From a virus: a stretch of 52,606 nucleotides of DNA. Shown here in pieces: positions 582 to 27,572 of this stretch (the stretch's first letter is position 1; each line of letters opens with the position of its first letter). The position numbers were made by a program, and so were the translations under genes. The DNA is taken from positions 1-52,606 of the IMG/VR virus record IMGVR_UViG_3300047322_000449; one strand, written 5' to 3'. The notes below the pieces were generated by a model. The model saw nothing but the letters and a program-made list of their open reading frames with translations. It made no database searches and had not been told where the DNA came from.

Positions 582-687
582 CCTCCCTCCCAACGGTTAG
601 CAGCTGGGGCTTAGAGGCTGAACTACCCAAGCCTGTAAGCCCCCTGCTGGTAACCGCGGATAAGCCAAGGTGCCATAACCAGGGAGG
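582..687 (+). promoter_or_regulatory. Structured leader of the first early gene with internal anti-SD
   Basis: The leader has three parts. CCTCCCT at 582-588 is the exact complement of the AGGGAGG start motif at 681-687. Between them a long hairpin (594-656) pairs CGGTTA/TAACCG, CAGC/GCTG, GGGGCTTA/TAAGCCCC and AGGCT/AGCCT, about 23 bp with small internal loops. The start motif CCAGGGAGG (679-687) sits 8 bases before the ATG. GCCATAA occurs directly before both the complement (574-580) and the motif (672-678). The arrangement would allow the ribosome site to be masked by the upstream complement. Confidence 0.6.
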
Positions 688-695
688 AACCAAAA

Positions 696-953: not shown

Positions 954-1019
954 CGGGTAGGGCACCGAAAGGTGCCCCTCCCGGTGTGCTGAAGCATGCC
1001 AGAACACGAACCAGGGAGG
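954..1019 (+). promoter_or_regulatory. Double-hairpin start element
   Basis: Directly after the stop codon, CGGG (954-957) and GGGCACC pair with GGTGCCC and CCCG (80-83 of the 900s) across a GAAA loop. A second hairpin, GGTGTGC/GCATGCC with a TGAA loop, covers 983-1000. CCAGGGAGG follows at 1011-1019, 8 bases before the next ATG. No U-tract follows, so it is not a normal intrinsic terminator. Confidence 0.75.
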
Positions 1020-1027
1020 AACACAAG

Positions 1028-1288: not shown

Positions 1289-1350
1289 CGGGAGGGGCAG
1301 GAACTCAAACCTGCCCCGTCCCGGTGCGCTACTGCACCTAACCAGGGAGG
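1289..1350 (+). promoter_or_regulatory. Double-hairpin start element
   Basis: The first stem pairs CGGGA-GGGGCAGG with CCTGCCCC-GTCCCG across an 8-base loop. The second pairs GGTGC (1323-1327) with GCACC (1334-1338). CCAGGGAGG follows at 1342-1350, 9 bases before the ATG. Both stems differ in sequence from the preceding element while keeping the same order, clamp and pairing. Confidence 0.75.
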
Positions 1351-1359
1351 TACTACAGA

Positions 1360-1665: not shown

Positions 1666-1726
1666 CGGGTGCGGTTCTTCGGAACCGTTCCCGGAGCACT
1701 ACGCTCCGTAACAAAACACAGGGAGG
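1666..1726 (+). promoter_or_regulatory. Double-hairpin start element with UUCG loop
   Basis: The first stem joins CGGG/CCCG and CGGTTC/GAACCG and is capped by TTCG closed by a C-G pair, the very stable UUCG type. The second stem is GGAGC (1693-1697) with GCTCC (1703-1707). A variant start motif, CACAGGGAGG, ends at 1726, and the ATG follows 5 bases later. Confidence 0.75.
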
Positions 1727-1731
1727 GCACA

Positions 1732-2084: not shown

Positions 2085-2142
2085 CGGGCACTCATCACGC
2101 TGCCTCTGCCCGGAGCATTCGCTCCGAACACAACCAGGGAGG
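2085..2142 (+). promoter_or_regulatory. Start element, weaker first hairpin
   Basis: CGGGCA (2085-2090) can pair with TGCCCG (2107-2112), and GGAGC (2112-2116) with GCTCC (2121-2125) across ATTC. CCAGGGAGG follows at 2134-2142, only 4 bases before the ATG. Upstream, AGGACT/AGTCCT (1990-2008) forms a further small hairpin. The first stem has a long loop and is less convincing than in sister elements. Confidence 0.6.
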
Positions 2143-2146
2143 AAGC

Positions 2147-2616: not shown

Positions 2617-2692
2617 CGGGAGCGTACCCGAGAGGGTACGCTTCCCGGTGTGCCACTCAGGACGCCTACCACAGAACTACCAACCAGGGAGG
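2617..2692 (+). promoter_or_regulatory. Double-hairpin start element with GAGA loop
   Basis: CGGG/CCCG clamps a perfect 8-bp stem, GCGTACCC/GGGTACGC, capped by the GNRA-type loop GAGA. A weaker second stem (GGT...ACC, 2647-2670) follows, then CCAGGGAGG at 2684-2692 and the ATG 7 bases later. Confidence 0.78.
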
Positions 2693-2699
2693 AAAGGCA

Positions 2700-3699: not shown

Positions 3700-3759
3700 C
3701 GGCTGAGGCTCTTCGGAGCCTTGGCCGGAGCTCACGCTCCACAAGCAACCACAGGGAGG
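3700..3759 (+). promoter_or_regulatory. Double-hairpin start element with a covarying clamp
   Basis: The clamp is CGGC/GCCG instead of the usual CGGG/CCCG, a compensated change. The stem AGGCTC/GAGCCT is capped by TTCG. The second stem is GGAGC/GCTCC (3727-3740). ACAGGGAGG follows at 3751-3759, with the ATG at 3765. Confidence 0.75.
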
Positions 3760-3764
3760 AGAAT

Positions 3765-4746: not shown

Positions 4747-4807
4747 CGGGTTGCGTAGCATCAGCTACGCTTCCCGGTGTTCAGACAGAGCACCATGACC
4801 AGGGAGG
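4747..4807 (+). promoter_or_regulatory. Double-hairpin start element
   Basis: CGGG/CCCG clamps a perfect 7-bp stem, GCGTAGC/GCTACGC, with loop ATCA. The second hairpin begins GGTG and closes with CACC (4776-4794). CCAGGGAGG is at 4799-4807, with the ATG at 4813. Confidence 0.75.
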
Positions 4808-4812
4808 TGGCA

Positions 4813-5335: not shown

Positions 5336-5395
5336 CGGGTGGCGCTCTCAGGAGCGCTGCCCGGTATGCCAGACGGCGTACCATAACCAGGGAGG
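5336..5395 (+). promoter_or_regulatory. Double-hairpin start element
   Basis: CGGG/CCCG clamps GCGCTC/GAGCGC with loop TCAG. The second stem is the best of the set: GGTATGCC pairs with GGCGTACC over 8 bp (one G-U) around AGAC (5363-5382). CCAGGGAGG at 5387-5395 is 5 bases before the ATG. Confidence 0.78.
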
Positions 5396-5400
5396 TAGCT

Positions 5401-6109: not shown

Positions 6110-6174
6110 CGGGAATCGCTAGGAGACTAGCGATCTCCCGGAGCATCAGGTATGCTCCACTAGACCCAGGGAGG
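6110..6174 (+). promoter_or_regulatory. Double-hairpin start element with GAGA loop
   Basis: CGGG/CCCG clamps a perfect 8-bp stem, ATCGCTAG/CTAGCGAT, capped by GAGA. The second stem is GGAGCAT/ATGCTCC, 7 bp, around CAGGT (6140-6158). CCAGGGAGG is at 6166-6174, 5 bases before the ATG. Confidence 0.8.
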
Positions 6175-6179
6175 TGAAT

Positions 6180-7397: not shown

Positions 7398-7401
7398 AAT
7401 G

Positions 7402-7656
7402 ATGGATATCGTATTCACAATCCTCTTCATCGTGGCCCTCTTGGCCCTCATCGGCAAGATCGTTCGCGACAGAGAGGACGAACGTGGCGAGCACGACCAG
7501 GTCCTGGTTCGGAAGTACAAGACGACTGCCTCGATGCAGCGGGATCTCAACAAGCTCACCAAGCTCGGCTGGACGGCAGACCAACAGACGGCTGCTGCTG
7601 GGTTCCTCACCGGAACCAGGAGCTACACCGTCACGTACATCAGACATCAGCTATAG
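7402..7656 (+). CDS. Small membrane-anchored hypothetical protein
   Basis: 84 residues. Two ATGs are adjacent (7399 and 7402); the second gives better spacing from GGGAGG. Residues 3-22 (IVFTILFIVALLALIGKIV) form one transmembrane helix at the extreme N-terminus, followed by a charged cytoplasmic-type domain. No cleavage site is obvious, so it is probably a membrane anchor. Function unknown. Confidence 0.78.
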   Translation: MDIVFTILFIVALLALIGKIVRDREDERGEHDQVLVRKYKTTASMQRDLNKLTKLGWTADQQTAAAGFLTGTRSYTVTYIRHQL

Positions 7657-7673
7657 TTGCATAGCAGCCCACA

Positions 7674-7739
7674 CCAGAGGCTGCTAAGTGCGCTCGGGTG
7701 TTCCTCCCTGGACCCTGGAGCGCACTTAGGAGCCTCTGG
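7674..7739 (+). ncRNA. Candidate regulatory RNA hairpin with anti-start-motif loop
   Basis: CCAGAGGCT pairs with AGCCTCTGG (9 bp), then CTAAGTGCGCTC with GAGCGCACTTAG (12 bp), then GGGT with ACCC (4 bp). The only interruptions are one G-G mismatch and a two-base bulge. The 12-base loop is GTTCCTCCCTGG (7700-7711). Its last ten bases, TCCTCCCTGG, are the exact complement of CCAGGGAGGA, the start motif before the genes at 696, 1028, 2147 and 2700; nine bases match five further genes. No reading frame explains the sequence and no U-tract follows. Whether it is an independent RNA or part of a longer transcript cannot be seen. Confidence 0.6.
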
Positions 7740-7743
7740 CTCT

Positions 7744-7793
7744 AGGGACTAGCCATACGGCTAGCAATCAGGTATCATTACCTGAGTAACCCT
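7744..7793 (+). ncRNA. Predicted three-way-junction RNA element
   Basis: AGGG/CCCT and ACT/AGT close a junction (7744-7750 with 7785-7793). It holds two hairpins, AGCC-ATAC-GGCT (7751-7762) and CAGGTA-TCAT-TACCTG (7769-7784). It lies between the anti-motif hairpin and the gene at 7833. It is too short and wrongly proportioned for a tRNA. It could be the 5' leader structure of the next gene or part of one larger RNA with the preceding hairpin. Confidence 0.45.
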
Positions 7794-7832
7794 GCTTCAC
7801 CGAGTAGACACTACCAACTGAAGGGAGCGAAC

Positions 7833-8363
7833 ATGGCACGTGAGGCAAAGATGGCGACTCCGTCGCAGATGACGAAGCTCGTCGCAGAGGTCAAGAAGAA
7901 CCCCGGTGAGTCCGAGCGGTACTACTCCGAGAAGTGCGGCATCGACATGGCACTGATCGGTCGCTCGCTCTGGGCAGCCGAGGTCCAGGCGGACCCCAGC
8001 CTGAAGATCGCCGCCACTCCGGCGTCGGTCGCCAAGGCCGCCGACAAGGGCACCCTGCGCTGGCCGCGGATCGCGGCTTACGCTGGCATCTCTGTCGGTC
8101 AGGCCAAGGCACTGTACGAGCAGCACACCGGCAAGGCGGCTCCGTCGAACCTGACGAGTCGCGGTCGGCAGTTCGACGGCGTCACGCCGCAGAAGCGCAC
8201 CGGCTCGTCCGGTCGGCGCGGAGCGGCGGCTGCCAAGCCGAGCGGGACCAGCGGTCGCCGGGGTGCGGCGAAGCCCACCACCGCCAAGCGCGGTGCGGCC
8301 AAGCCCGCAGCCGGCAAGCCCGCAGGTCGCCGGGGAACCCGCGCAGGCGCGGACCCCAAGTAA
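7833..8363 (+). CDS. Histone H1-like basic DNA-binding protein candidate
   Basis: 176 residues with ATG behind AAGGGAG. Residues 1-100 are predicted helical with turn spacings that could be one or two HTH folds (KLVAEVKKNPGESERYYSEK, later LRWPRIAAYAGISVGQAKAL). Residues 105-176 are a low-complexity Lys/Ala/Pro/Arg/Gly tail with repeats of the type RRGAA-KP, as in histone H1-like bacterial proteins. A role in coating or regulating DNA is likely from composition; the exact family is not recognised. Confidence 0.8.
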   Translation: MAREAKMATPSQMTKLVAEVKKNPGESERYYSEKCGIDMALIGRSLWAAEVQADPSLKIAATPASVAKAADKGTLRWPRIAAYAGISVGQAKALYEQHTGKAAPSNLTSRGRQFDGVTPQKRTGSSGRRGAAAAKPSGTSGRRGAAKPTTAKRGAAKPAAGKPAGRRGTRAGADPK

Positions 8364-8692: not shown

Positions 8693-8789
8693 TAGCTGTG
8701 GCCCCGATGGGCCACGGCTAGAGCGCTCGGCGCTCTACGTTGGGTAGACCATTACCCATCGTCTTACTAGGACAATACAACCAGGGAGG
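8693..8789 (+). promoter_or_regulatory. Triple-hairpin start element
   Basis: Three hairpins stand in a row: TAGCTGTGGCCC/GGGCCACGGCTA (8693-8720, one G-U), GAGCGC/GCGCTC (8721-8735) and TGGGTA/TACCCA (8741-8758). CCAGGGAGG is at 8781-8789, with the ATG at 8793. It is a variant of the left-arm double-hairpin element, without the CGGG clamp. Confidence 0.7.
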
Positions 8790-8792
8790 GCT

Positions 8793-27276: not shown

Positions 27277-27572
27277 AACTGAACACCCAACACGTACTGG
27301 CACTATACCTCATCAACATCCGGATTGGGTTCGGTGCCGAGGTCACCGTGGATCTTCTGTCGCAGGATGAATACGGTGACATCCTTGCCGACATCAGCCA
27401 GGGAGGATTCGAGCCTCGCCGGATCAAGCTGCACGCGAAAGGCGGGTTCCAGGGCGAGTTGAAGCCGGAAACGACGATGGGTAACGACGTCTCCAGCGAA
27501 GAAGAGGACGAAGACATGGCTTTCGCTGGTCGCACCCGATCGACGATGGAGAAAGGCTCCTCCAATGGCTAG
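27273..27572 (+). CDS. Hypothetical acidic protein
   Basis: 99 residues with a GTG start in a GTGA overlap. The first 60 residues are alpha/beta; the last 40 are acidic and disordered with a run of Glu and Asp (DVSSEEEDEDM). Overlaps the next gene by 8 bases. Not recognised. Confidence 0.74.
   Translation: MKLNTQHVLALYLINIRIGFGAEVTVDLLSQDEYGDILADISQGGFEPRRIKLHAKGGFQGELKPETTMGNDVSSEEEDEDMAFAGRTRSTMEKGSSNG

Follow-up and report, generated by a model that had tools for sequence, protein, structure and literature searches.

The early genes of a 52.6-kb virus record, which was analyzed at its full length and is called the window here, share a start motif, CCAGGGAGG, whose complement is displayed in the loop of one strong hairpin at positions 7674 to 7739. 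The sequence holds the hairpin itself, an exact complementarity between loop and motif, a loop that is unique in the window and conserved over replaced stems, and a recurrence of the same arrangement in an unrelated group of phages. Pairing between loop and motif is well supported by these sequence features. Our reading, to which we give slightly better than even chances, is that the hairpin belongs to a phage regulatory RNA whose loop would pair with the motif of the early regulon, cover the ribosome sites, and lower translation.

The window belongs to an uncultured phage with a contractile tail. Its right side encodes, on the minus strand, a sheath, a baseplate wedge, a head protease, and the major head protein, and genes for a helicase, exonuclease, primase, and DNA polymerase lie on the plus strand. 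No near relative was found at the DNA level among 50,697 phage records, and a helicase scan of GTDB genomes gave no relatives. Because the nearest proteins in cultured phages come mostly from actinophages (about 30-45% identity), the host is likely to be actinobacterial. Relatives from IMG/VR were gathered by a stem pattern scan, helicase scans, and scans with the neighboring gene family, and they form seven groups (L005/L016; L007/L012; L023; L024; L025; L056 with near-identical copies; L064). A scan with the pattern of the first hairpin of the element (H1) for further lineages returned 80 stretches, among which the anti-motif occurred only in those already known. The element and its surroundings in the window comprise the following features.

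7402..7656, plus strand: upstream gene; the hairpin lies 3' of its stop codon, in 3' UTR position
7663..7685, plus strand: H1, AGCAGCC/GGCTGCT, an alternative hairpin that overlaps the 5' arm of extended H2
7674..7739, plus strand: long hairpin, the extended form of H2, defined by its arms and fold energy
7686-7695/7718-7727, plus strand: core stem of H2, common to the relatives
7698..7711, plus strand: anti-motif loop GTGTTCCTCCCTGG, conserved in relatives, with the core CTCCCTG at 7704-7710
7729..7743, plus strand: H3, a small hairpin, GGAGCC/GGCTCT, alternative to the 3' arm of extended H2
7750..7778, plus strand: promoter-like TAGCCA-17-TATCAT, between the hairpin and gene 7833
7833..8363, plus strand: downstream gene, without a start motif of this kind; the same family lies directly downstream in every lineage

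The hairpin described in an earlier note on this DNA proved to be real and strong: its arms (7674-7695/7718-7739) are complementary at 95%, and the predicted fold of the 86-nt RNA has an energy of -54.9 kcal/mol, where shuffled sequences average -33.1 (z -6.1) and 0 of 200 shuffles do as well. The long stem reported there is present, but its length of about 25 bp came down to 21 bp in the minimum-energy fold, in which the loop is partly closed by weak inner pairing. Ten loop bases, TCCTCCCTGG at 7702-7711, are the perfect complement of CCAGGGAGGA, just as that note had stated, and the match extends to 14 nt at the site at 1011. When all hairpins with stems of 8 bp or more and loops between 6 and 22 nt were collected across the window (141 on the plus strand, 105 on the minus strand), this loop matched 9 nt of the anti-motif and the runner-up matched 5. 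The window type allows a further fold, in which the H1 and H3 arms pair mutually to give the 21-bp extended stem; this stem beats the three-hairpin form by 10 kcal/mol, and this mutual pairing may account for a conserved G.G mismatch. An Rfam search of the window returned nothing at the gathering threshold, the top sub-threshold match being an irrelevant microRNA model. A reading of the hairpin on the minus strand as a gene leader was rejected, since the ORF context gives it no support.

The motif CCAGGGAGG stands upstream of nine early genes in the window. The exact form CCAGGGAGGA occurs at 679, 1011, 2134, and 2684, ahead of the starts of four of them, and CCAGGGAGG[T/G], with a different last base, occurs at 1342, 4799, 5387, 6166, and 8781, ahead of five more, so that a listing of the sites upheld both of the counts given earlier.

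679..688, plus strand: start motif CCAGGGAGGA, before ATG 696
1011..1024, plus strand: start motif CCAGGGAGGAACAC, complement of the loop GTGTTCCTCCCTGG (7698-7711) over 14 nt
1342..1351, plus strand: start motif CCAGGGAGGT, before ATG 1360
1718..1727, plus strand: variant start motif ACAGGGAGGG, of the ACAGGGAGG type, preceding a start
2134..2143, plus strand: start motif CCAGGGAGGA, from the site listing
2684..2693, plus strand: start motif CCAGGGAGGA, before ATG 2700
3751..3760, plus strand: variant start motif ACAGGGAGGA, of the ACAGGGAGG type, before ATG 3765
4799..4808, plus strand: start motif CCAGGGAGGT, from the site listing
5387..5396, plus strand: start motif CCAGGGAGGT, from the site listing
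6166..6175, plus strand: start motif CCAGGGAGGT, from the site listing
8781..8790, plus strand: start motif CCAGGGAGGG, before ATG 8793, downstream of the hairpin

The motif is uniform and asymmetric, and it is found in one orientation a few nucleotides before many start codons of the early, non-structural region. Pairing with the 16S rRNA tail had been thought to explain GGAGG alone; the tail in fact accounts for (A)GGGAGG if one G-U pair is allowed, and for some T variants it reaches into the following bases too, so that what lies beyond 16S complementarity, as had been claimed of the front of the motif, is only the CC (or AC) ahead of AGGGAGG at nearly all sites. Duplexes between loop and motif are predicted at about -15 to -22 kcal/mol, and those of the 16S tail with the same sites at about -12. 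A fifth exact copy of CCAGGGAGGA lies at 27398-27407, within an ORF and away from any start codon. Most early genes between 930 and 6150 are also preceded by a strong hairpin of their own, which ends about 25 nt ahead of the motif and has a shared GCGGG...CCCGG base with a variable top; L024 and L025 have similar ones, and some of these hairpins carry CCTCCC, which could pair in cis with the GGGAGG of the motif.

In the window and in all seven groups of relatives, the hairpin sits between the upstream gene, whose stop codon it follows, and a downstream gene that is always of one and the same family. Every group has the loop core CTCCCTG, and the stems of more distant groups are mostly unrelated in sequence, their replacement having proceeded largely by compensatory changes. 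The elements follow a common plan, H1-H2-H3, with the anti-motif in the H2 loop, and the counterpart of H1, GCAG..CTGC, covaries in five other lineages. Because the window-type stems could not be aligned to the rest with MAFFT, pair counting was restricted to five other sequences (L023, L024, L025, L056, and L064, the last shifted by a two-base insertion in their alignment). Both sides had changed in 12 of 19 pairs, and 96.8% of the cells were paired, compared with at most 56% in slid controls that are only partly independent, because the structure was drawn from the same five sequences. The covariation score was reached by none of 500 shuffles of these non-window sequences. A covariance model built without the window placed the window element first of 25 matches in positions 1-30000 with filters off, as a weak hit (E 0.076). 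The stem is conserved as a structure and the loop is complementary to the ribosome site, as expected at the sequence level of a loop-antisense RNA against ribosome sites. Weak second matches to an H1-H2 model were seen in L023 (1351-1443, E 0.0015) and L056 (8855-8936, E 0.11), shortly before the next motif-bearing gene and with loops that are not obviously anti-motif.

Loop and motif also changed together once. The window clade, L023, and L064 have the motif CCAGGGAGG and loops ending in CTGG; L024 and L025 have the motif ACAGGGAGG at 15 of 16 sites and the loops CTCCCTGT, so that the change from CCA to ACA in the motif is matched by a change from CTGG to CTGT in the loop. The L024/L025 loop reads ACTCCCTGT rather than CCTCCCTG. 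Predicted duplex energies follow the same division, as the L024/L025 loops on average favor ACA-type sites and the CCA-type loops favor CCA-type sites. L056 is the exception, with the ACA-type motif ACAGGGAGG and yet a CTGG loop, CTCCCTGG being kept. Since L024 and L025 agree and L056 does not, this position offers one matched change and one unmatched state. L060-L063, which share the neighboring gene and have plain AAGGAGGGT sites, carry no such hairpin at the syntenic place, and as an outgroup they amount to one contrast rather than several. Three of them (L061, L062, and L063) have a motif that closely resembles the 16S complement, GAAAGGAGGGTAC, at as many as a dozen or so sites, without the hairpin. 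The expectation that loop and motif would be conserved together is borne out by the loop core kept over rebuilt stems and by the matched change, but not by L056 or by the K3 and K6 phages described next.

Many non-structural genes of Cluster K mycobacteriophages have a short asymmetric motif (SAS/ESAS) at their ribosome sites; SAS is conserved past the 16S tail, has inverted repeats upstream of many sites, and occurs in one antisense copy per K1 genome (PMC3203893, PMC11373665). In our analysis, the single antisense SAS of Adephagia (K1), which has one mismatch to the 13-mer, proved, as predicted, to occupy a long hairpin's loop, and the K1 loop CCTCCTATCC was invariant in eight divergent members, with largely compensating stem changes. 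This hairpin sits in the intergenic gap between genes 92 and 93, where RNA-seq places the apparent beginning of late transcription (Freeman et al. 2024; PMC11373665), which suggests that the antisense loop may be carried by the late-transcript leader. The same gap (28300-28900 of L029, Adephagia genes 92-93) holds a few hundred nucleotides that Cluster K phages share as a conserved block. Ahead of the anti-SAS hairpin, this block has a TTTTAGACT box, then GCACAACTGTGC and a hairpin, GGCCCCG..CGGGGCC; it resembles a structured late-transcript leader and gave no credible Rfam match. Elsewhere in the cluster, no anti-SAS loop was found in K3 (Pixie, Keshu) or in the right arm of TM4 (K2), and only a degenerate one in K6 (Ekdilam), though SAS is unchanged in all of them. 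The Microbacterium phage AnnaSerena (EF) also has SAS (PMC7302621), and there the out-of-sample prediction failed, the antisense copy being absent. Because K2 and K3 phages retain the motif without such a loop, the coupling of motif and loop is not obligatory, and L056 together with K3/K6 counts against a simple lock-and-key rule. The window motif resembles SAS in being short, asymmetric, present at many ribosome sites, and conserved past the 16S complement. The GCGGG...CCCGG hairpins that stand some 25 nt ahead of most sites may correspond to the inverted repeats of ESAS, which contain promoters. The Cluster K consensus is GGGATAGGAGCCC, however, and the window motif is AACCAGGGAGG, which makes it an analogue rather than a family member.

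The surroundings of the hairpin bear on where its RNA would come from. An early-gene stop precedes it and a promoter-like sequence follows, so the transcript with most of the motifs probably has it at its 3' end. No promoter was found directly upstream of it, no intrinsic terminator was found at 7400-7900 in a scan covering loops of 3-8 only, and the hairpin is not followed by a T-run. Counterparts of the promoter-like sequence are present in other lineages, hairpin-less ones included; because it separates the hairpin from gene 7833, the earlier suggestion of an action in cis is weakened as far as the downstream gene is concerned. The product of that gene is modeled as a six-helix N-terminal domain with a basic, disordered GRRG/RGR-rich tail; the window member had no Pfam match, and although its helical domain was predicted with high confidence, a structure search gave no confident fold match. 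Its family is also encoded by phages that lack motif and hairpin (L060-L063).

A position after an early-gene stop and before a separate promoter-like sequence would suit a role in which the hairpin, instead of repressing translation, bridges a 3' UTR to 5' UTRs or serves as a sponge, by protecting mRNA, by linking transcripts, or through its own titration by the motifs. All of the pairing evidence fits this equally well, yet repression is the simpler prediction for a pairing that would cover the ribosome site, and the K1 hairpin lies in the late-start gap rather than at the end of the SAS operon; we consider such a role fairly unlikely. It is unlikely, too, that the element, with its C-rich loop, serves as an operon terminator or in the processing or stability of RNA, its complementarity stemming from some other constraint on the loop or from a gene leader that was copied in inverted orientation long ago. 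The location between an operon end and the next promoter, the strong hairpins in other early intergenic gaps, and the ordinary hairpin in the same slot of L061 and L063 would all agree with this, but the stem sequence is free to vary while the loop is fixed, the loop tracks the motif in L024/L025, a T tract was not found, and the arrangement recurs in Cluster K1 with a different sequence. Very improbable is a phage protein that reads the motif as RNA or DNA and has the inverted copy in the hairpin as its control site (autoregulation by the neighboring protein, or an origin or operator), for although the same basic, disordered-tailed protein is encoded beside the element in every lineage and double-stranded DNA would present an inverted copy of the motif as an identical site, the promoter for the protein's gene seems to be placed 3' of the hairpin, the family persists where motif and hairpin are absent, a DNA site needs no compensated stem, and the structure search yielded no confident fold.

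Translational repression by a loop-antisense RNA would proceed as follows. The hairpin, as the pairing end of the regulatory RNA, is probably transcribed with the early operon that precedes it, to form a 3' UTR or a processed RNA; being upstream of the promoter-like sequence of gene 7833 and having no promoter of its own that we could find, it would most likely be produced as the 3' end of early transcripts and so constitute a feedback brake. It would act on other mRNAs or on other parts of the same mRNA, its loop base-pairing with the CCAGGGAGG start motif of about ten early genes. Because the loop-motif duplex is predicted to be stronger than pairing with the 16S tail, hairpin RNA in excess could shut out ribosomes, and the effect of covering these sites would presumably be a fall in the translation of early genes, most likely as early transcripts build up or as infection advances. 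The idea, put forward in the earlier note, of an RNA that pairs with many early ribosome sites gains from the sequence support for pairing and from the recurrence in K1, and loses from the unmatched L056 and K3/K6. More tentatively, as a possibility we are inclined to doubt, the start motif could mark the early regulon in a genome-wide RNA address code, in which one complementary-loop hairpin RNA controls translation, for example in an early-to-late switch, and which would have had separate origins in two or more unrelated groups of actinophages.

Antisense loops against ribosome sites are already known. The c4 antisense RNA of P1 and P7 blocks a ribosome binding site, with the complementary sequences probably in loops (PMC12197685), and it is similar to the window element in its arrangement of a phage RNA, a complementary loop, and a ribosome binding site; c4, however, has one mRNA target (ant), whereas the window loop matches the motif of about ten genes. 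The mycobacterial sRNA 6C/B11 has C-rich hairpin loops able to pair with G-rich 5' UTR sequence in several targets, and 6C is reported, by a paper cited in that account, to work without RNA chaperones (PMC10470900). It shares with our hairpin the C-rich loops, the G-rich 5' UTR targets, and their multiplicity, but it is host-encoded, its loops are runs of C, and its targets have no uniform dedicated motif. What is new with respect to the open-access literature is one hairpin paired with the uniform start motif of a phage gene block, in two unrelated groups, and with it a possible reason why Cluster K1 genomes carry an antisense SAS. The function of SAS has been open since 2011 and its role was still given as not known in 2024 (Freeman et al. 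2024; PMC11373665); the antisense loop offers it a concrete partner, and Adephagia in M. smegmatis is a tractable laboratory phage for a sharp test of this idea. Because the window relatives and unrelated Mycobacterium phages share the arrangement, a single phage RNA may control a whole early gene set at its ribosome sites, and if this is true, one small RNA would coordinate the translation of an entire phage gene block, where the phage antisense RNAs considered here, such as c4, act on one target.
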